Shown one piece after another: positions 1,860 through 32,625 of a DNA stretch of 35,120 nucleotides (within the stretch, counting starts at the first letter, position 1; each line of letters opens with the position of its first letter). Location: positions 1 to 35,120 of the forward strand of contig WHST01000068.1 of NCBI GenBank assembly GCA_009379955.1. Direction: 5' to 3'. The position numbers were made by a program, and so were the translations under genes. The notes under the pieces were generated by a model, which did not search any database, was not told the origin of the DNA, and saw nothing but the letters and a program-made list of their open reading frames with translations. The DNA comes from Streptosporangiales bacterium. Lineage in GTDB: Bacteria > Actinomycetota > Actinomycetes > Streptosporangiales > WHST01.

Positions 1860-3152
1860 CTAAACGGCGCGAACGTCGCGCAGCCGGGTCGTCAGCAGCA
1901 GCGACACGAGCGGGAACGCGACCAGGACCGTGAGCGCGACGCGCAGGTCGTACGCGTCGGCGAGCATGCCGAACAGCGGCGCCGCGAGGCCGCCGATGCT
2001 CATCGCGAGGCCGAGCGTCACGCCGCTCGCGGTGCCGACCCGGTGCGGCAGGTACTCCTGTCCCAGCGTCACCTGCACGGCGAACGGCAGGAAGCTCGCG
2101 AGCCCGAGCACCGCGACGACGACGAACGCGACCGACAGGTTCGGCGCGAGCACCAGCCCGAGCACGCAGGGAGCGGCCGCCAGGTAGCCGATCCGCAGCG
2201 TGCGCACCCGGCCGAAGCGGTCGGCGAGCGCACCGCCGATGAGGGCACCGACCGAGCCGGACGCGATGAACGTCGCCAGCGCGACGGAGCCGACCGCCGT
2301 CGAGGCGCCGAGCTCGTGGATGAGGTAGAGCGCGACGAACGAGAGGAGGCCGAAGTACAGGATCGAGCGTGCGATCACCGCGCTGGTGAGGAAGCCGAAG
2401 CTGCGCCAGTCGTCGCGCCGGTCGACCGCCGGCGGGGGCTTGCGCGGGCCCGCCCGCAGCCGACGTCGTCGCAGCCACAGCAGCGCGGGTACCAGGACCG
2501 CGGCCGCGCAGGCGGCGGGAATCGCGAGCAGCGGCGTGGCCGTCACGCCGAACGTGCCGAGCACGGGTGCAACGAGCAGCGGCGCCGACGCGATGCCGAC
2601 GATGCCGGCGACGGAGAAGTAGCTCATCCCCCGTGCCGTGCCGCCGCTCGCGATCCTGGCCGAACGCGCGGCCTCCGGGTGGTACGCCGCGACCCCGATG
2701 CCGGACAGCGCGATCGCCGCCCAGGTGAACGCGTACGCCTCGCCGACACCGGCCAGGCCGATCCCCGCTCCCGCCACGAGCGGCCCGGCGGCGATGAGCC
2801 ACGGCATCGGCCGGCGGTCGGTCAGCGCGCCGAACACCGGCTGCACGAGGCTGGACAGCAGTGTCGCGGCGAGCGTGATGCCGGTGACCGCGGCGTAGCT
2901 GTAGTCGCGGGCGATGACGAGGAACGGCAGCATCGCGGGCACCGCGCCCTGGTGGAAGTCGACCGCCACGTGGCTGCCGACGATCAGGGCGAGCGACGAC
3001 CGGTGGACGCGGGGACGGCCGTTCTCGGTGCTCGCTTCTCCCTCTCGCGCGCCTCCTCGCTCCCCTCCGGCAGACGCCGCGGAGATCTCAGGGGTGGTGC
3101 GGCGGACTTCGCGGCCTCTACCTCCGGCTCGCTCCTCAGCTCCTGCGCTCAC
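1860..3152 (-). CDS. MFS exporter, fosmidomycin-resistance (Fsr)-like
   Basis: A 430-residue inner-membrane protein with about 12 hydrophobic segments. The N-terminal motif HVAVDFHQGAVPAMLPFL, FGALTDRRP after the second helix and GALADRFGRVRTLR midway resemble the Fsr/YfnC branch of the major facilitator family, which exports drugs; the substrate here is not known. The chosen start is GTG 3152, with a GAGGAT box 6 nt upstream; ATG 3170, six codons earlier, is the alternative. The first ~35 residues (VSAGAEERAGGRGRE...) are hydrophilic, unlike any transporter N-terminus, and come from a repeat also found before glbO at 20769. The true conserved protein begins near RPRVHRSSLALIVG. It lies 12 nt before malQ, so co-transcription is likely. 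Confidence 0.85.
   Translation of the reverse strand: MSAGAEERAGGRGREVRRTTPEISAASAGGERGGAREGEASTENGRPRVHRSSLALIVGSHVAVDFHQGAVPAMLPFLVIARDYSYAAVTGITLAATLLSSLVQPVFGALTDRRPMPWLIAAGPLVAGAGIGLAGVGEAYAFTWAAIALSGIGVAAYHPEAARSARIASGGTARGMSYFSVAGIVGIASAPLLVAPVLGTFGVTATPLLAIPAACAAAVLVPALLWLRRRRLRAGPRKPPPAVDRRDDWRSFGFLTSAVIARSILYFGLLSFVALYLIHELGASTAVGSVALATFIASGSVGALIGGALADRFGRVRTLRIGYLAAAPCVLGLVLAPNLSVAFVVVAVLGLASFLPFAVQVTLGQEYLPHRVGTASGVTLGLAMSIGGLAAPLFGMLADAYDLRVALTVLVAFPLVSLLLTTRLRDVRAV
3046..3152 (-). repeat. 107-nt leader-peptide repeat, copy 1 (fused in frame to the MFS gene)
   Basis: Read on the minus strand from GTG 3152, this stretch aligns without gaps to 20769-20875 (plus): 83 of 107 bases are identical by my count, strongest in the first 45 and in the tail around CTGCCGGAGG. 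The reading frame is kept: 22 of 34 residues after the start agree, including SAGAEERA and AGGER. Here the frame continues into the transporter. Confidence 0.8.
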
Positions 3153-3193
3153 CCCCCGATCCTCGCGCATCGCCGCCGCCCGCCGAGTACGGC

Positions 3194-11087: not shown

Positions 11088-11129
11088 CGGCGCCGACGCG
11101 ACGTGAGCCTGCGGCCCACGAGCACCCGC

Positions 11130-11135
11130 TATCCT
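11130..11135 (+). promoter_or_regulatory. Leaderless -10 box of STAND regulator 1
   Basis: TATCCT is followed by 6 nt and then GTG 11142, placing the expected transcription start at or next to the start codon. No Shine-Dalgarno site is present. Confidence 0.6.
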
Positions 11136-11141
11136 CCGAAC

Positions 11142-13565
11142 GTGACGGTGGGTGACAACACGGCGTTCGCACGCCTTCTCGCGTCCGCGCGGCAGCGCGC
11201 GGGCCTCACCCAGGAGGAGCTCGCGGCACGCTCCGGCACGAGCGTGCGGACGGTGAGCAACCTCGAACGCGGCAGCGTCCGCCGTCCCCACGCCGACACC
11301 GTCAAGCGGCTCGCCGTGGCACTCGGCCTCACCGGCACGGCCGCGGCGTCCTTCATCGGCGTCGCACGCGGCCACTCGCTCGCCCCACCGGTCACCGTCT
11401 CACCCGTCGAGGCGGCACACCCACCCGCGCAGCTCCCCGCCGACCTCGCCGACTTCACCGGACGCGAGGAGACGGTGCGCCACGTCATCGGCCTGCTGAC
11501 CGAGGAGCATCCGTCCGCGCCGCGCGTGGTCGCGGTGGTCGGGGCGGGCGGCACCGGCAAGAGCAGCCTGGCGACGCGCGTCGCGACCCGCATCCGCGAC
11601 GGGTTCCCCGACGGCCAGCTCGTCGCCGAGCTGCACGGCGCCACCGCCCAGCCGGCCCGTGCCGAGGACGTCCTGACCGCGCTCCTGCACAGCCTCGGCG
11701 TCACGGCGCCGAACGTGCCCCCCAGCCTGGAGGAACGCGCGGCGATGTACCGCTCGCTGCTCGACAGGCGTCGCGTGCTCGTCGTGCTCGACGACGCCCG
11801 CGACGCCGCCCAGGTCCGTCCGCTCCTGCCCGCGTCGCCGGGCTGCGCCGTCATCGCCACGAGCCGCAGGTCGCTGTCCGAGCTGCCGGTGCCGCATGTC
11901 GAGCTGCCCGCGCTCGACCGCGCCGAGGCACGCGAGCTGTTCACCCGCATCGTCGGCGCGGAACGCGCCCGCGAAGAGCCCGACGCCGCCTCGGCCGTCG
12001 TCGACGCCTGCGGCGGGCTGCCGCTCGCGCTGCGCATCGCCGGGAGCCGGCTCGTCGCGCGCCCTGGCTGGACGATCGCGAGCCTCGCCGAACGCCTCAC
12101 CGACTCGCGCAGGCGACTCGACGAGCTGAGGGTCGGCGACCTCCGCGTCCGCAGCAGCTTCGCGGTCAGCTACCACGCGCTGTCCGGCGAGACCGCGCGG
12201 GCGTTCCGGCTGCTCGGTGTCCTCGATCATCCGGAGTGCGGGCTCGCGCCCGCCGCCGCGTTGCTCGACACCTCGGCGGAGGACGCCGAGCGCGTGCTCG
12301 ACGAGCTCGTCGACGTCCACCTCCTCGACTCACCGCAGCCGGAGCGGTACCGCCTCCACGACCTGCTGCACGGCTTCGCACGCGAGCTCGCCGACGACGA
12401 GCTCGCCCGGCACGAGCATGTGGCGGCGGTGCGGCGCGCGCTGGAGTACGCGGTCGACACGGCTCTCGACGCCGCGGCCGTCCTGCACCCGGCAGAGGCG
12501 GACGACGACAGGGCCGGCCGCGCGAACGGGTTCGGCGACGTGACGTCGGCGCTCGCCTGGCTCGAGCGGACGACCGAGGAGCTGACCGCTCTGGCCGAGC
12601 AGGCGGCGGCGATGCCCGAGCTCCCGCCCGAGACGTCGGCACACCTGCTCGCCGCGATCGCCCACGGCAAGTACGCGACCGGCGACTGGCCCACGATCGA
12701 GCACCTCGCCAGGAGGATCCTCCGTGACGTCGACGAGGCACGTGACCCCGCACTCGTGGCGCGTGCGCACGCCCTCCTCGCCCGAGCGCTCACGTCGGTC
12801 CACCGCGCCGACGAGGCCGAGCCGCACCACGAGCGTGCACTCGCGGGCTTCCGCGCGCTCGGCCTGCGCGTCCACGAGGCCAGCACGCTCCAGAACGTCG
12901 GCGTACGGCTCACCAGGCAGCGCAGGCCCGAGGACTCGCTCCACGTCCTCGACGAGGCGCTGCGGATCTGGACCGAGCTCGACCACCACGCCGGGCGAGC
13001 CTGGTGCATCTGGACCGCGGGCACGATCACCAGCTTCCTGCACCACTCCGACGAGGCGCGCGAACAGCTGGAGCAGAGCCTCGCGCTCTTCCGCGCCGCG
13101 GGCGACAAGCGCGGGGAGTCCGTCGCCCTCAACAACATCGGGCACAACGACATCCTCGGCGGCCGGCCGGAGCAGGCACTCGTGTACCTGACCGAGAGCC
13201 TGGCGCTCTCCCGGCAGCTCGGCAACCGCGACAACGAGGCCGAGGTGCTCGACAGCTTCGGCGAGGCCTACGCCGCGGCCGCCGAGTGGGACCTCGCCAG
13301 GCACCACTACGAGCTGGCGCTCGCGCTCCGCATCGAGACGAGGGACAGGCACGGCGAGGCACGCGTCCTCACCCAGCTCGGCAGCGTCCTCTCGGCCCTC
13401 GGTGACACCGAGCAGGCCCGCGACACCTGGACGGCCGCGCTGCGCATCTTCGAGGACATGGGCACGCCGGCGGCGGCCGACGTCCGCACCCTGCTCAGTG
13501 GCGAGGCGCACGGCCTGTGGCTGACCGAGTTCGGCCTGCAGTCGCACGGTGAGTCCGTGTCCTGA
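11142..13565 (+). CDS. STAND regulator 1: HTH_XRE - NB-ARC - TPR
   Basis: An 807-residue signal-transducing ATPase. Residues ~8-65 form an XRE-type helix-turn-helix (LLASARQRAGLTQEELAARSGTS). After PAQLPADLADFTGR (~96-108), a junction typical of AfsR-like proteins, the NB-ARC domain shows Walker A GAGGTGKS (134-141), Walker B VLVVLDD (212-218), ATSRR (239-243), GLPL (292-295) and an MHD-like RLHDLLH (404-410). The C-terminal half has helical tetratricopeptide-type repeats with tandem A/L/Y patterns (e.g. ESLALSRQLGNRDNEAEVLDSFGEAYA). Probably a transcription factor whose DNA binding is gated by nucleotide and a ligand on the TPRs; target unknown. The gene downstream is a close paralogue. Confidence 0.85.
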   Translation: MTVGDNTAFARLLASARQRAGLTQEELAARSGTSVRTVSNLERGSVRRPHADTVKRLAVALGLTGTAAASFIGVARGHSLAPPVTVSPVEAAHPPAQLPADLADFTGREETVRHVIGLLTEEHPSAPRVVAVVGAGGTGKSSLATRVATRIRDGFPDGQLVAELHGATAQPARAEDVLTALLHSLGVTAPNVPPSLEERAAMYRSLLDRRRVLVVLDDARDAAQVRPLLPASPGCAVIATSRRSLSELPVPHVELPALDRAEARELFTRIVGAERAREEPDAASAVVDACGGLPLALRIAGSRLVARPGWTIASLAERLTDSRRRLDELRVGDLRVRSSFAVSYHALSGETARAFRLLGVLDHPECGLAPAAALLDTSAEDAERVLDELVDVHLLDSPQPERYRLHDLLHGFARELADDELARHEHVAAVRRALEYAVDTALDAAAVLHPAEADDDRAGRANGFGDVTSALAWLERTTEELTALAEQAAAMPELPPETSAHLLAAIAHGKYATGDWPTIEHLARRILRDVDEARDPALVARAHALLARALTSVHRADEAEPHHERALAGFRALGLRVHEASTLQNVGVRLTRQRRPEDSLHVLDEALRIWTELDHHAGRAWCIWTAGTITSFLHHSDEAREQLEQSLALFRAAGDKRGESVALNNIGHNDILGGRPEQALVYLTESLALSRQLGNRDNEAEVLDSFGEAYAAAAEWDLARHHYELALALRIETRDRHGEARVLTQLGSVLSALGDTEQARDTWTAALRIFEDMGTPAAADVRTLLSGEAHGLWLTEFGLQSHGESVS

Positions 13566-13576
13566 CGGGCTTCCGC

Positions 13577-13582
13577 TACGGT
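13577..13582 (+). promoter_or_regulatory. Leaderless -10 box of STAND regulator 2
   Basis: TACGGT lies 7 nt before GTG 13590 in a 24-nt gap after the previous gene. This spacing decides for GTG 13590 over the in-frame GTG 13584, which is only one base from the box. Confidence 0.6.
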
Positions 13583-13589
13583 CGTGCCC

Positions 13590-15977
13590 GTGCCCGGGGA
13601 CGAGACGTTCGGCAGCCTGCTCGCCCGGACCCGCCGGCAGGCCGGCCTGACGCAGGAGGAACTCGCCGCTCGTGCGGGCACCAGCGTGCGCGCGGTGCGC
13701 AACATCGAACGCGGTGCCGTCCGCCGACCACACCTGCACACGGTGCGCGTCCTCGCCAAGGCGCTCGCGCTGCGCGACGACGACACGGCGTACTTCGTCG
13801 CTCGGGCACGTGGACAGGTGCCCGCCCACCCGGCACGGCCGGTCGCCGGCGTCGTCCCCGCGCAGCTCCCCGCCGACCTCGCCGACTTCACCGGTCGCCC
13901 CGGGACGGTCGCCGACGCCGTGGCGCTGCTGACCGGACGGGACGAGCCGGGCACGCCCGTCCTGGCCGTCGCCGGGTCCGGAGGCAGCGGCAAGAGCGCC
14001 CTCGCCGTCCACGTCGCGCACCGGGCGAGGACGTCGTACCCGGACGGGCAGCTCTACGTGGGCCTGCGCGGGGCGTCGGAACGTCCGGTCGATCCCGGCG
14101 ACGCGCTCGCCACCCTGCTCGCCGGGCTCGGCGTCGGCGGCGCGTCCCTCCCCACGTCGACGACGGAACGTGCCGCCGTCCTCCGTTCCCTGCTCGCCGA
14201 CAAGCGCATGCTGCTCGTGGTCGACGACGCTCGCGACGCCGCCCAGGTGCGCCCGTTGCTGCCCGGCGCGGGCGGCTGCGCCGTCCTGGTCACGAGTCGC
14301 CGATCCCTCGTCGAGCTGACGCCGACCCGGCACATCGAGCTCACCCCTCTCGACCACGACGAGGGCGTGGCCCTCTTCACCGGGATCATCGGAGCCTCGC
14401 GTGCCGGCGGCGAGCCGGACGCGACCGCGACCGTCGTCCGTACCTGCGGCGGCCTCCCGCTCGCGATCCGGCTCGCGGCCGGGCGGCTCGCCGCGCGTCC
14501 CCGCTGGACCGTCACGAGCCTCGCCGACCGGCTCGCCGACTCCAGGCACCGGCTCGACGAGCTGCGGGCCGGCGACCTCCAGGTGCGCAGCAGCTTCGAG
14601 CTCAGCTACCGGAACCTGTCGAACGACGTCGCCCACGCGTTCCGCACACTCGGTGTGCTCGACCATCCGGCGTACGCCCTCGACCTCGCCGCCGCGCTGA
14701 TCGGCCGTCCCGTCGACGTGGCGGAGAAGCTCCTCGACGAGCTCGTCGACGTCCACCTCCTCGACTCACCGGCGCCGGGACGCTACCGGCTGCACGACCT
14801 CCTGCACTCGTTCGCGCGGGAGCTCGCGGCGGACCAGGACTCCGCCGACGTCCGCACGGCGTCGCTGGCGCGAGCACTCGACCACGCGACGGCCGCGACG
14901 GTCGACGCCACGGCAGCGCTGCGCCCGTACCTGACCGAGCACGAGGACACGTCGGAGCGCTTCGCGCTGTCCGAGCACGCCATGGCGTGGTACGCCGAGA
15001 GCTGGGACGAGCTGTCGTCGCTCGCGCGCCAGGCGGTCGAGCGGCCGGCGCTCGACCGCCACCAGGTCGCACGGCTGCTGGCCGAGCTCGCCGAGAGCCG
15101 CTCGGTCGCCGGTCGCTGGCAGCTCTTCGAGGAGTTCGCCCGCGCCGGCCTCGCCCTCGCGGTCGAGAGCGGTGACGAGGCCGCGATGACCCGCGCGCAC
15201 CTGCAGCTCGGCTGGGCGCTCACCAACCGGGGAGCCACGACCGAGGCGGCTCCGCACCAGGAGGAGGCGCTCGCCGGCAGCCGGCAGCTCGGCCTGCGCG
15301 CCCTCGAGGCCAACGCGCTCGTCGGCATCAGCGACCGGCTGCTCCACGACCGCGATCTCGACGAGGCGTTGCGCCGCTCGGAGGAGGCGCGGGCGATCTG
15401 GCACGACCTCGGTCACGGGAGCGGCGAGGCGCTCGCGCTCGAGCACCTCGCCAAGGCACTCGACCGCGCCGGCAGGTACGACGAGGCCGTCGCGCGGCTC
15501 GAACGCGGGGTGGCGCTCGTCCGGCGGCGGGGCGACCGCCGCACCGAGGCGTTCCAGCTGAACAGCCTCGCGTACTGCTACATCGGACTCGACCGCCCCG
15601 CCGACGCGATCGAGCCCGCCACGCGGTGCGTCGAGATCGGCCGCGCGATCGGGCACGCCAACCTTGAGGGCGCCGCGCTCGACACGCTCGCCGAGGCGTA
15701 CGCCGTCATCGGCGAGCTCGAGCTCGCCCGGCAGCACTTCGAGAACGCCCTCGACCGCCTCGTCGCGCCGCGCGGTCGCGGCAAGGAGGCGACGCTGATC
15801 GGGCTCGGCCACGTCCTGCACGCCCTCGGCGACACCGCGGGCGCGAAGGACCGCTGGCGGGAGGCGCTGGCCCAGTACGACGGCGACGAACCACAGGTGG
15901 CCGACCTTTACCGCCTCCTCGCCGACCCCGACGCCGAGGTCACCATGGACCGGCCGCGCCGGCCGCGTACCTCGTAG
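13590..15977 (+). CDS. STAND regulator 2: HTH_XRE - NB-ARC - TPR, paralogue of regulator 1
   Basis: A 795-residue protein with the same architecture as its upstream neighbour. HTH residues ~6-62 (LLARTRRQAGLTQEELAARAGTSVR), PAQLPADLADFTGR (~90-103), Walker A GSGGSGKS (129-136), Walker B MLLVVDDARDAAQVRPLLPG, VTSRRSLVELTPTRHIEL, CGGLPLAIRLAAGRL, and YRLHDLLHSFAREL as the MHD-like motif. The C-terminal region is TPR-like (e.g. LAKALDRAGRYDEAVARLERG). Long blocks in the HTH and ATPase are nearly the same in both genes, while the TPR halves differ, as expected after duplication with change of sensed ligand. Function unknown; probably transcriptional. Confidence 0.85.
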   Translation: MPGDETFGSLLARTRRQAGLTQEELAARAGTSVRAVRNIERGAVRRPHLHTVRVLAKALALRDDDTAYFVARARGQVPAHPARPVAGVVPAQLPADLADFTGRPGTVADAVALLTGRDEPGTPVLAVAGSGGSGKSALAVHVAHRARTSYPDGQLYVGLRGASERPVDPGDALATLLAGLGVGGASLPTSTTERAAVLRSLLADKRMLLVVDDARDAAQVRPLLPGAGGCAVLVTSRRSLVELTPTRHIELTPLDHDEGVALFTGIIGASRAGGEPDATATVVRTCGGLPLAIRLAAGRLAARPRWTVTSLADRLADSRHRLDELRAGDLQVRSSFELSYRNLSNDVAHAFRTLGVLDHPAYALDLAAALIGRPVDVAEKLLDELVDVHLLDSPAPGRYRLHDLLHSFARELAADQDSADVRTASLARALDHATAATVDATAALRPYLTEHEDTSERFALSEHAMAWYAESWDELSSLARQAVERPALDRHQVARLLAELAESRSVAGRWQLFEEFARAGLALAVESGDEAAMTRAHLQLGWALTNRGATTEAAPHQEEALAGSRQLGLRALEANALVGISDRLLHDRDLDEALRRSEEARAIWHDLGHGSGEALALEHLAKALDRAGRYDEAVARLERGVALVRRRGDRRTEAFQLNSLAYCYIGLDRPADAIEPATRCVEIGRAIGHANLEGAALDTLAEAYAVIGELELARQHFENALDRLVAPRGRGKEATLIGLGHVLHALGDTAGAKDRWREALAQYDGDEPQVADLYRLLADPDAEVTMDRPRRPRTS

Positions 15978-19862: not shown

Positions 19863-20759
19863 ATGACCGTGACGTTCGCGCAGGCCCATCCGTGGTACGT
19901 CCAGCTGATCGCCATCGTGGTGACGCTGGTCGCCGCCATGGCCCTGCGGTTCCTGCTCGGCCGGCTCATCACCAGGATCGCCCGGCGCATCGGCGAGAGC
20001 CGGATGCCCCAGTGGCGGCTGTTCCCCGGACGCAGCTCCGCCCTGCTCTCCGAGCGCCGCGAGCAGCGCACCCAGACCGCCGCGTCGCTGCTGCGCAGCG
20101 TGACGTCGTTCGTCGTGTTCTCCATCGCCGTCGTCCTCGTCCTCTACTACCTCGGCGTCGAGCTGACCAAGGTGTTCGCGGGCGTCGGCGTCATCAGCCT
20201 CATCGTCGGCTTCGGCGCACGCGAGATCATCAGCGACTTCCTCGCCGGCATCGCGATGCTCGGCGCCGACCAGTACGGCGTCGGCGACGTCGTCGACGTC
20301 GGCGCGATCACGGGCACGGTCGAGGGAGTCGGCCTGCGCACGACGCGGCTGCGCGACGCCGACGGCGCCGTCTGGTACGTCCGCAACGGGCAGATCCCCC
20401 GGGTCGGCAACATGAGCCAGGGCTGGGGCCGCGCCGTCATCGACGTCCCGGTACCGAGCGGCCGCGACCCCGACACCATCCGCGACCTGCTCGGCAAGGT
20501 CGCCCGGTCGATGCGCGACGAGCCCGAGTGGCAGAGCGTGATCCTCGACGAGCCCGACGTTCCCGGCGTCGTCGAGCTGGAGACCGACCACTACGTCGTG
20601 CAGGTGACCGTCCGCACGTCGCCGCTGCGCGCCGCGGAGGTCGCCGCCGACCTCCGCGAACGCTTCGTCGACGCCCTCGACGACGCCCTGGCCGCCGAGA
20701 CGCCCCCCGCCACGGCGTACGAGGCCGCCGAGGAGCCAGGCGACCGCGACGCGCCCTAG
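19863..20759 (+). CDS. mscS: Small-conductance mechanosensitive channel (MscS family)
   Basis: A 298-residue channel that opens on membrane tension to release solutes. One N-terminal helix (VQLIAIVVTLVAAMALRFLL), a long charged stretch, a second helix (FVVFSIAVVLVLYYLGV) and the pore helix GVGVISLIVGFGAREIISDFLAGIAML are followed by the MscS beta domain (GVGDVVDVGAITGTVEGVGLRTTRLRDADGAVWYVRNGQI). The acidic tail is poorly conserved. ATG 19863 is only 2 nt after the TACGCT box (19855-19860); GTG 19869 at 8 nt would be the leaderless alternative, two codons shorter. Confidence 0.92.
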   Translation: MTVTFAQAHPWYVQLIAIVVTLVAAMALRFLLGRLITRIARRIGESRMPQWRLFPGRSSALLSERREQRTQTAASLLRSVTSFVVFSIAVVLVLYYLGVELTKVFAGVGVISLIVGFGAREIISDFLAGIAMLGADQYGVGDVVDVGAITGTVEGVGLRTTRLRDADGAVWYVRNGQIPRVGNMSQGWGRAVIDVPVPSGRDPDTIRDLLGKVARSMRDEPEWQSVILDEPDVPGVVELETDHYVVQVTVRTSPLRAAEVAADLRERFVDALDDALAAETPPATAYEAAEEPGDRDAP

Positions 20760-20762
20760 GCT
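20757..20762 (+). promoter_or_regulatory. Leaderless -10 box before the glbO leader ORF
   Basis: TAGGCT, overlapping the mscS TAG stop, stands 6 nt before ATG 20769, the first base of the 107-nt repeat. Confidence 0.6.
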
Positions 20763-20768
20763 GGCCCG

Positions 20769-20875
20769 ATGAGCGCAGGAGCTGAGGAACGAGCCGCAGG
20801 TAGGGGCCGCGACGCCTGCCGGACCGAGCAGGGCATTGTCGCGGCACCTGCCGGAGGCGAGCGACGAAGCGGGCG
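20769..20875 (+). repeat. 107-nt leader-peptide repeat, copy 2
   Basis: Ungapped match (83/107 bases) to the minus-strand copy at 3152-3046. It starts exactly at an ATG and ends 10 bases before the glbO ATG. Confidence 0.8.
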
Positions 20876-20888
20876 CGTGGGCCGATGA
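20769..20888 (+). CDS. 39-residue leader ORF carried by the repeat, coupled to glbO
   Basis: ATG 20769 opens a 39-codon frame (MSAGAEERAAGRGRD...GGERRSGRVGR) that ends in a TGA sharing ATGA with the glbO start. It has a good -10 box 6 nt upstream. Its sequence matches the N-terminal extension of the MFS protein at 3152-3046 in the same frame. It is hydrophilic and Arg/Gly-rich with no domain I recognise. It may only serve to start translation and pass ribosomes to glbO, or it may be an incidental frame in an inserted repeat. Existence as a stable peptide is unproven. Confidence 0.5.
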   Translation: MSAGAEERAAGRGRDACRTEQGIVAAPAGGERRSGRVGR

Positions 20889-21313
20889 GCGAGCAGCAGG
20901 CGTCGACCTTCTACGAGATCGTCGGCGGCGCGGACACCTTCCGCCGTCTCGTCGACGGCTTCTACGCGCGTGTGGCGGACGACCCCCTGCTGCGCGAGAT
21001 GTACACCGACGACCTCGCCGCGGCGTCCGACCATCTGCGGATGTTCCTCGAGCAGTACTGGGGCGGCCCGCGCACCTACGGCGAGCTGCGCGGACACCCG
21101 CGGTTGCGCATGCGGCACGTGCCGTTCCACATCGACCGCGCCGCGCACGACGTCTGGCTGCGCCACATGCGCGCCGCCCTCGACGACGTCGGCCTGCCGC
21201 CCGACCGCGACCAGCAGCTGTGGACCTACCTCGTGATGGCGGCCGAGAGCCTCATCAACGTCGAGGACGAGCCCGGCGACCCGCCGCAGGGGCGCTCGCT
21301 CCCCCTGGCCTGA
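20885..21313 (+). CDS. glbO: Group II truncated haemoglobin
   Basis: A 142-residue haem protein closely resembling mycobacterial TrHbO. The block LRMFLEQYWGGPRTYGELRGHPRLRMRH is a family hallmark. Key haem-pocket residues are present: Y27 (B10), Y40 (CD1), proximal H78 (F8) and W91 (G8), the set associated with group II oxygen/peroxide and NO chemistry. Cytoplasmic, no signal peptide. Start ATG 20885 overlaps the leader-ORF stop (ATGA). An O2/NO-active globin and a bd oxidase in the same window would fit low-oxygen or nitrosative stress, but they are 11 kb apart. Confidence 0.95.
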   Translation: MSEQQASTFYEIVGGADTFRRLVDGFYARVADDPLLREMYTDDLAAASDHLRMFLEQYWGGPRTYGELRGHPRLRMRHVPFHIDRAAHDVWLRHMRAALDDVGLPPDRDQQLWTYLVMAAESLINVEDEPGDPPQGRSLPLA

Positions 21314-30596: not shown

Positions 30597-32585
30597 TCAG
30601 CCGAGGGTGAGCTGCTCGGGCTCCTCGGGTCGCTCCGGCTCCGGTTCCGGCTCCTCGCCCTGGCGGAAGGCCCAGCGCGGGGCGCGGCCGATGCCGTGCC
30701 GCTCCGCCGCCTCGCGCACCCGCGCGGTGATCGTGCGCTGGTAGGCCTTCGGCGCATACGAGCCGGACCGGTAGATGCCGTCGTACATCGGCACCAGCCG
30801 CGGATGCTCGCGCAGCAGCCACGCGCGGTACCACTCCCGCGCACCCGGCCGCAGGTGGAGGACGAGCGGTGTGACGCTGGACGCGCCCGCCGCCGCGATC
30901 GCGGCGACCGTGCGCTCGAGCTGTTCGGGCGAGTCGCTCAGGCCGGGCAGCACCGGGGCCATCAACACCGAGCAGCCGATCCCGGCGTCGGTGAAGCGGC
31001 GTACGACGTCGAGCCGCCGCACCGGCGACGGGGTGCCCGGCTCGACCGACCGCCAGAGGGCCTCGTCGACCGAGCCGACGGAGACGGCCACCGAGACGCG
31101 CGCTTCTCGGGCCGCCTGGGTGATGAGGTCGACGTCGCGCAGGATCAGGGTGCCCTTGGTGAGGATGGAGAACGGGTTGGCGTGGTCGCGGAGCGCGGAC
31201 AGGATCTCGCGCATCAGCCGGTAGCGGCCCTCGGCCCGCTGGTACGGGTCGGTGTTGGTGCCCATCGCGATCGACTCGCCGCGCCACCGCGGGGCGCTCA
31301 GCTCACGGCGTGCCAGCTCGCCGGCGTTGACCTTGACGAGGATCTTGCTGTCGAAGTCGTTGCCCGCGTCGAGATCGAGGTAGGTGTGGGTCTTGCGGGC
31401 GAAGCAGTTGTGGCTGACCACGCCGTCGGCAACGAAGTCGCCGGTGCCGGTGGTGATGTCGTACATCGGCAGGTCGAGCCCGAGCGGACGCACGGCGACC
31501 ACCCCCAGCCTCGCGTCGGTCGCCGCGACCACGCCCTCGATGCCGCGCCTCGGCCCGCTCGCCGGGTCGACGGCATGCAGGAAGCGCAGGCACTCGCGCA
31601 GCCCGCCGACGAGGTGGAGGCCGTCGGACCTCGCCGTGGGGTCGACGGCGTGCCGGAAGCCGAACCTGGCCAGCGCGGACGTGAGATGGCGGCCGACCTC
31701 GGGGCCTGATATCGCGACGCGCACGACGCCGTCGCGACAGTCGCCCTCGGCGTCGAACATCCCGGCGAGGAACCCCTTGCACCACTGGTCGGACGGTCGG
31801 CTCGGGATCGGCACCGGGGCGTCGACCCCGTCGTCCGGCGCCCGGCCGAACGGGGCGCGGGTGCCGGCCGCGAGGAGGAAGCTGCGGGTCCTGGCGAGCG
31901 GTCCGAGCTCGAACGGCGCGCCCACCGGGGTGCGGACACCGGCGCGCAGCGCGGCAGCGAGGTAGCCGTGCCGGTAGTCGGCGCAGTGCTCGGGCGCCGG
32001 CGGCAGATGACCGAACCCGAACAGCTGGTTGCGCGTGGTCAGGTGCGGCCGCCGTCCGCCGTCGCCGGACACTCCCGTGACGTGCTTCCAGCCGCGTTCG
32101 GTGAGGAACCGGTGGTCCCCACTGGCGACCAGCGTGGTGCCATCCTCGAGCTCCACCTCGTACGCCGGCTTGACCGTGCGCCAGTGGGCGAGCACGTCGG
32201 TGACGACATACCTCCGCCGCCCGTCGTGGCGCTCGGTGCCGTAGACGCGGTCACCGACCCGCACGTCGGCGAGCGGCCTGCTCCGCCCATCGGCCATCAG
32301 GATCGGCGTGTCGCCCGCCAGGCAGTAGACGCACGCGTGACTGCAGCCGCGGTACGGGTTGATCGTCCAGCCGAACGACATGTGCGACTCGGCGGGCACC
32401 CGGTTGATGATCGACTTCGCCGTGATCTCGATCGCCAGCGGCTCGGCCGAGCCCGCCTCGATCGGCGCGGGTCCCGCGACGGCGAGACCGGCCCTGCCGG
32501 TGCCCCTGGCCGGAGCCTCGTCCGGCAGGGCGAGGGGCAACGCGGGCGTGCCCGCGTCGGTGGTGCGCAACGACTCCCAACGCAT
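30597..32585 (-). CDS. Rv2578c-family radical SAM protein interrupted by an intein
   Basis: A 662-residue precursor. The host protein matches the Rv2578c/SplB-like branch (TAKSIINRVPAESHMSFGWTINPYRGCSHACVYC, SIAMGTNTDPYQRAEGRYRLMREIL, SILTKGTLILRDVDL, GCSVLMAPVLPGLSDS). The CX3CX2C iron-sulfur motif is broken: C81 and C85 are upstream and the third Cys is C394, after the intein (C88-N393). Splicing rebuilds CVYCFARKTH. Related proteins are thought to act on damaged nucleic acid, unproven here. I chose ATG 32585 (MRWESL, as in Rv2578c) over ATG 32621, because the latter would run through a LexA-like box at 32594-32609. C-terminus ends in an acidic Glu/Pro-rich tail. Confidence 0.92.
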   Translation of the reverse strand: MRWESLRTTDAGTPALPLALPDEAPARGTGRAGLAVAGPAPIEAGSAEPLAIEITAKSIINRVPAESHMSFGWTINPYRGCSHACVYCLAGDTPILMADGRSRPLADVRVGDRVYGTERHDGRRRYVVTDVLAHWRTVKPAYEVELEDGTTLVASGDHRFLTERGWKHVTGVSGDGGRRPHLTTRNQLFGFGHLPPAPEHCADYRHGYLAAALRAGVRTPVGAPFELGPLARTRSFLLAAGTRAPFGRAPDDGVDAPVPIPSRPSDQWCKGFLAGMFDAEGDCRDGVVRVAISGPEVGRHLTSALARFGFRHAVDPTARSDGLHLVGGLRECLRFLHAVDPASGPRRGIEGVVAATDARLGVVAVRPLGLDLPMYDITTGTGDFVADGVVSHNCFARKTHTYLDLDAGNDFDSKILVKVNAGELARRELSAPRWRGESIAMGTNTDPYQRAEGRYRLMREILSALRDHANPFSILTKGTLILRDVDLITQAAREARVSVAVSVGSVDEALWRSVEPGTPSPVRRLDVVRRFTDAGIGCSVLMAPVLPGLSDSPEQLERTVAAIAAAGASSVTPLVLHLRPGAREWYRAWLLREHPRLVPMYDGIYRSGSYAPKAYQRTITARVREAAERHGIGRAPRWAFRQGEEPEPEPERPEEPEQLTLG
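31407..32324 (-). other. Intein (306 residues) with degenerate LAGLIDADG endonuclease
   Basis: Block A is CLAGDTPILMADG at the first Cys; block B is DGTTLVASGDHRFLTERG (conserved His); the C-terminal blocks are MYDITTGTGDFVADGVVSHN followed by Cys as +1 residue. A LAGLIDADG-like motif is seen in CKGFLAGMFDAEGD; its partner, HGYLAAALRAG, lacks the acidic residue, so the homing endonuclease is probably inactive. The splice residues (Cys1, HN, Cys+1) are intact. Confidence 0.92.
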
Positions 32586-32593
32586 GTCCCAAT

Positions 32594-32609
32594 TCGAACA
32601 TACATTCGA
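32594..32609. promoter_or_regulatory. LexA/SOS-box-like operator of the radical SAM gene
   Basis: TCGAACATACATTCGA differs from the actinobacterial LexA consensus TCGAAC-N4-GTTCGA by one base and lies 8 nt before ATG 32585. TATGTT within it could be the -10 on the minus strand. To my recollection Rv2578c of M. tuberculosis is LexA-controlled, which supports the reading. Confidence 0.65.
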
Positions 32610-32625
32610 GGCGTGGTCCATCTAC

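Follow-up and report, generated by a model that had tools for sequence, protein, structure and literature searches.

A start-codon-associated, probably mobile repeat family with a putatively coupled micro-ORF in a high-GC actinobacterium resembles mycobacterial MIRUs

Introduction

Typing of tuberculosis strains makes wide use of MIRUs and, to our knowledge, it is not known how these repeats move or what they do. The name stands for mycobacterial interspersed repetitive units (Supply et al. 1997, as described in PMC12548453), and a 2025 review describes them as mobile repeats whose insertion at a start codon leaves an internal ORF coupled to the gene at -4 nt spacing, which likely keeps their influence on that gene to a minimum (PMC12548453). 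The 77-nt 5' UTR of parA in M. bovis is formed by a class I MIRU, and the M. marinum gene is leaderless (PMC4128351). In the literature that we found, MIRUs are described from mycobacteria only, and our search returned no report of such repeats outside mycobacteria.

Here we describe a repeat family from a high-GC actinobacterium (host genome G000; 6.6 Mb in 225 contigs), two copies of which lie in the window, that is, the whole stretch of 35,120 nucleotides that was analysed. We consider it very probable that this is a family of short, non-autonomous and probably mobile elements that target start codons and carry a coupled micro-ORF, and that the family is MIRU-like and not primarily an N-terminal tag.

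Results

Two copies of the repeat in the window

A first-pass annotation of this DNA had noticed a gapless repeat of 107 nt shared by the start of an MFS transporter gene and a micro-ORF before glbO. Our comparison bears this out: positions 3152-3046 (minus strand) align without gaps to 20769-20875 (plus strand), with 83/107 identical bases and 22 identical residues (BLAST within G000, E = 1.4e-18 for the pair), and the two segments are members of a dispersed family. The 24 differences are distributed 7, 7 and 10 by codon position, a third-position bias that is not strong. A DTG codon opens both copies, 6 nt 3' of GAGGAT (MFS) or TAGGCT (glbO), as the annotation had also stated. The first four bases of the match, GTGA in the MFS copy and ATGA in the glbO copy, are part of the target and not of the element. 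The features of the two sites are listed below, with E values from a covariance model of the element (R1, built from 50 copies) and with a sister species (G001) and a third genome (G002) for comparison.

1863-3170, minus strand: MFS transporter gene (MFS_1; Pfam PF07690, E 8.4e-25), the element forming its predicted N-terminal extension
3033-3035, minus strand: probable decayed second MFS start, GCG for GTG, 117 nt (0 mod 3) past the first start
3046-3148, minus strand: core element copy 1, 103 nt, 5' end GCGCAGG, 3' end 2 nt shorter (covariance model E 2.8e-14; BLAST)
3149-3152, minus strand: left target GTGA, where the micro-ORF starts and where the MFS gene presumably started originally; the element-free G001 orthologue starts GTGAGTACG
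3159-3164, minus strand: GAGGAT, a -10-like box 6 nt upstream of GTG, likely to belong to a putative leaderless promoter of the gene itself; upstream sequence partly retained in G001
20757-20762, plus strand: TAGGCT, a -10 box 6 nt upstream of ATG, belonging to the putative leaderless promoter of glbO itself; TAGGGT-N6-ATG in element-free G001 and G002
20769-20888, plus strand: micro-ORF of 39 aa, MSAGAEERAAGRGRD...RRSGRVGR*, its stop TGA (20886-20888) lying within the glbO ATGA
20773-20877, plus strand: core element copy 2, 105 nt (covariance model E 1.3e-18)
20878-20884, plus strand: TGGGCCG, right-end spacer of an 'A' type copy (GTGGNNNN before ATGA), repeated across many copies
20885-21313, plus strand: glbO, truncated haemoglobin (Pfam PF01152, E 2.4e-32), predicted start at the second ATGA

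Elsewhere in the window, 30600-32621 (minus strand) encodes a radical SAM protein that is Rv2578c/SPL-like by eye. Judged from its sequence, this gene appears to be interrupted by an intein; the insert begins CLAGDTPILMADGRSRPLADV, ends VVSHNC and gives a weak Hom_end_hint match (E 1.5e-4, below the curated cut-off). Two adjacent paralogous HTH/NB-ARC/TPR (STAND-type) regulators, about 73% identical over 300 nt, are located at 11103-15977 (plus strand).

A dispersed family in one genus

The window repeat has 43 BLAST matches in its own genome, and the covariance model finds 66 matches there, two of them marginal, giving about 64-66 copies with a core of 105-106 nt. With the same model, the sister species holds 25 copies and G002 a single one. 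No element was found outside the genus among about 690 genomes (299 of the order and 395 of the class), a survey in which few candidates were scored per genome and weak copies could escape, and an exact DNA pattern scan of GTDB r220 (84,980 species) and viral contigs gave no match. As far as sampled, the family thus appears to be restricted to one genus. A weak model match in another genome (G487, E 0.004) falls in apparently coding sequence and was judged to be due to chance.

Start-codon placement and reading frame

We compared all copies in one orientation; the polarity of the micro-ORF is that of the downstream gene. Most copies belong to one of two types: those of the 'A' type begin directly after ATGA or GTGA, and those of the 'B' type begin 5-18 nt past the start codon and have an extra C in GCTCGAC. 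The right end of the element, GCGCG, is followed by the downstream start codon (mostly DTGA) after 1-2 nt in 'B' type and about 7 nt in 'A' type copies. DTGA starts are present on both flanks in 50 of the 86 copies examined, and most of the others retain one side. In 43 of these 50, all with an open gene behind, the start-to-start distance is 2 mod 3 (binomial p = 2e-14), the fitting distances being 113, 116 (the main one), 119, 122 and 125. Therefore the frame of the micro-ORF stays open across the element and closes at the TGA within the ATGA start of the gene, and the earlier statement that frame is kept from the start codon holds genome-wide. The copies are not scattered at random relative to start codons, and their indels are mostly compensated; 1-nt loop indels in L003, L012 and L017, for example, are balanced elsewhere and the element end remains in frame.

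Among the first 53 copies, 32 were classed as coupled, 14 as fused and 7 as other. The 33 copies fetched after the rule was seen gave 21 coupled (a few of them ambiguous), 1 fused and 11 other. One of the 32 (L009), like some others, was classed as coupled by the script through a chance overlap past a premature stop; the count of 43 in 50 avoids such cases. The stop is lost and the element fused in frame in about 15/86 copies, including the MFS copy. About 19/86 copies are without a start, have an internal stop or show no overlap, which counts against the explanation we prefer. At several sites, such as those of the genes before uppS and moaC, the upstream gene terminates at the very TGA that lies in the start of the micro-ORF, and therefore the micro-ORF would be coupled on both sides.

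These statistics bear directly on whether the repeat is an ordinary intergenic palindrome of the REP/MITE type, which owes its position to chance and to selection against gene disruption. Hairpin, dispersal and the absence of coding capacity for a transposase would all suit such a repeat. However, the right end adjoins a start codon in most copies, frame is kept from start to start as described above, and a Y1/HUH (RAYT) transposase (PF01797) is absent from G000-G002 in a search that detected its positive controls. As stated, this explanation is refuted by the frame and start-codon statistics, and we give it practically no weight.

The right flanks show two further peculiarities. Three G001 copies (L052, L067, L297) have the right-end spacer GGAGGAACGG, so that a GGAGG resembling a Shine-Dalgarno sequence precedes the gene start; the 'A' type copies of G000 have GTGGNNNN in this position. 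To the right of L034, the downstream gene opens with MSPAQELDAVVVG, in agreement with the initial codons of a 'B' type element (ATGANNCCAGCGCAGGAGCTCGAC); this gene start may be a remnant of the element that survives as an N-terminus, or it may point to where the element came from.

Element-free orthologous sites and possible traces of insertion

The element is absent at the orthologues of guaB3, moaC, pgl, apt, uppS, glbO and the MFS gene in G001, G002 or G003, and nuoH in G001 may carry an element remnant. The clearest case is glbO, for which G001 and G002 read TAGGGT-N6-ATGAGT and G000 reads TAGGCT-N6-ATGAGCG[element]GTGGGCCGATGAGCGAG. Because the -10 box is present in the element-free genomes, it is the gene's own, is older than the insertion and was captured by the micro-ORF. 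The first-pass annotation had proposed a mobile element that delivers a translation start. The many copies, the element-free sites and the frame rule all favour a mobile element located at start codons. The delivery of a start is right in one respect, as a second copy of the start codon stands at the right end of the element, and wrong in another, as the start that opens the micro-ORF is an existing gene start that has been taken over, at glbO along with its leaderless -10 box. At uppS a copy is present in both G000 (L023) and G001 (L044) at the same gene junction, with differing subtypes, which would fit either one old insertion inherited by both species or separate insertions into one target.

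Several copies have on their left a slightly altered repeat of the first 9-15 nt of the gene (L275 13/15, L293 10/11, L059 10/11, L287 10/12), for example ATGACGCGCATGGAA/ATGACACGCATGGAG at L275 and ATGAGTACTGA/ATGAGTACCGA at L293. Such repeats are expected if insertion duplicates a stretch that starts exactly at the start codon, and suggest that it does so. The length of the duplication is variable, about 4-15 nt, and this counts against our explanation. Apparent duplications at L055, L057 and L294 are units of tandem arrays and were dropped as evidence of target duplication. Two further points against it are that we saw no recent polymorphic insertion between strains and that we found no mobilising enzyme, a Y1/HUH transposase being absent from G000-G002.

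A covarying hairpin

The alignment of copies supports a closing stem between columns 1-4 and 107-110, which occurs as GCGC..GCGC, GCGA..TCGC, GTGA..TCAC and GCTC..GAGC, followed by a second stem (9-11/102-104) and an inner stem of 12 pairs. An isolated pair, 15-99, switches from C-G to G-C in 13 copies. Of the cells, 98.8% are paired and 56 show double changes; shuffles gave 17.8 +/- 3.2 such cells and slid controls no more than 7. Between the stems, G and A oppose each other in almost unvarying G.A/A.G steps (13-101, 14-100, 16-97, 17-96, 25-88 and 27-86). Our model of the element is therefore a long, rod-like hairpin, predicted to consist of Watson-Crick segments and tandem G.A pairs on the transcribed strand. 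The G.A steps can pair on this strand and not on its complement, which argues for selection on sense-strand RNA or on single-stranded DNA. Single copies have modest thermodynamic z-scores (-1.6 to -1.8), and the MFS copy folds poorly; because of these modest scores, the case for the structure rests on covariation.

Strong covariation with tandem G.A pairs, in a structure located within the mRNA beside the start, is also what a riboswitch-like or attenuator-like RNA leader would show. In such a case, the leader would have spread by duplication, position and frame would serve regulation and mobility would be incidental. However, the downstream genes (uppS, glbO, moaC, nuoH, guaB3, apt, queA, MFS) share no common pathway, the same genes are element-free in sister species, and Rfam has no family above its gathering threshold in the window. 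We regard a regulatory leader as unlikely. For the start-codon-targeting element that we favour, the hairpin might be a recognition feature for a mobilising enzyme or an RNA that tunes translation.

In-frame fusions

The MFS copy has lost 2 nt near the 3' end of the element, and its frame is 0 mod 3. The second start codon of the gene now appears to be GCG (3035-3033), and the element is predicted to extend a genuine MFS protein (PF07690) at its N-terminus. Fusion looks like the decay state of the coupled arrangement. A further case is L042 (contig C164 of G000, from about 2085), where two full tandem units of 117 nt (39 codons each) and a partial third are in frame with a gene that looks like a mandelate racemase/enolase-type enzyme. 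This array is, from its reading frame, a probable protein-level tandem repeat derived from the element.

The annotation had offered a shared N-terminal tag as its other reading, and a peptide tag or delivered start codon that functions in the protein would explain the extension in the MFS gene and about 14 others as well as the tandem fusion on C164. As a general role the tag fails: fusions are the minority (about 15/86), in most copies a stop codon overlapping the gene start closes the micro-ORF, the encoded peptide is variable in the loop region, and the start and the glbO -10 box are older than the element. We consider a functional tag very improbable. For annotators, the fusions mean that N-terminal extensions like that of the MFS protein can be fused repeats and that 39-aa micro-ORFs preceding genes can be element-borne.

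Discussion

A possible mode of insertion and persistence

In our proposal, the element would insert at a DTGA start codon, by an enzyme or by an RNA-based route that duplicates from the start codon onward, and would come to lie directly after the start or a few codons in, with the gene's start codon repeated at its right end. A micro-ORF of about 38 residues would then be read from the original start, its stop TGA overlapping the second start (ATGA). The ribosome would initiate at the old, often leaderless, site, terminate on the start of the real gene and re-initiate there, and because of this the insertion may be nearly neutral, which might be the reason why the element has survived. Loss of the stop would lead to in-frame fusion, for example in the MFS gene.

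Comparison with MIRUs and REP/RAYT

The element shares with MIRUs most features of its arrangement. Both are short dispersed repeats located at DTGA start codons on the same strand as the gene, both form tandem arrays, and both have a micro-ORF that is putatively coupled to the gene via a 4-nt ATGA overlap, with a length of 2 mod 3. MIRUs that we fetched from mycobacterial genomes follow this rule in 15/15 cases, and their micro-ORFs, of the form MTRAGDDAVGAPPACGGERR*, terminate at ATGA or GTGA. Insertion before leaderless genes is also common to the two (parA for MIRU, PMC4128351; glbO for the element). In contrast, the element resides in another genus, with the sampled genomes outside that genus negative; its core is longer (105-106 nt, versus 53-113 in MIRU); it has a strongly covarying full-length hairpin; and several copies carry a longer left duplication of the gene's 5' end.

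Descent from a common ancestor is a separate matter, since the element and MIRUs could be far-diverged members of a single family that spans orders, and this would concern descent only and be compatible with our explanation. The shared frame rule, a GACGA left motif and a GGGAG..CGG right motif common to both groups are consistent with such descent. So are the MIRU arms GCGCCG...CGGCGC, which are complementary with changes (95/102 pairs, permutation p of about 0.02, for hand-picked arms). An automatic alignment of MIRUs, which have internal deletions, gave no consensus structure, so that the arms were compared by hand, a weaker comparison. However, model R1 matches no MIRU above noise: against 22 loci of MIRU-bearing genomes we detected no homology, the best match (E 0.44) lying elsewhere in the loci, and BLAST of element against MIRU returned only words of 10-13 nt. 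Common descent is therefore doubtful in our judgement, with perhaps a minor share of the probability. The element would work like a MIRU and is, on sequence, not filed as one.

In mycobacterial MIRUs (L246-L273, G743 and relatives), the ends GCGCCG/CGGCGC are complementary and show compensating changes. We know of no earlier description of this feature.

With REP/RAYT and other palindromic MITE-like repeats, the element has in common that it is short, dispersed, able to form a hairpin and not coding for a transposase. It differs from them in that the Y1 transposase is absent from the genomes which carry it, and in that it is located at start codons and in frame, not in intergenic positions.

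A second family with the MIRU rule, whether unrelated in sequence or very distant, implies that the strategy is general. The covarying structure, together with a hint that MIRUs share its closing stem, offers a handle on mechanism, namely on what binds or copies the RNA or the hairpin. We tentatively suggest, as a possibility somewhat short of an even chance, that start-codon-targeting, translationally coupled mobile repeats form a class wider than mycobacteria. The families of this class, independent or very old, would have in common a folded RNA whose closing stem covaries, and their mobilisation would depend on the recognition of start codons, possibly via the structured RNA itself.
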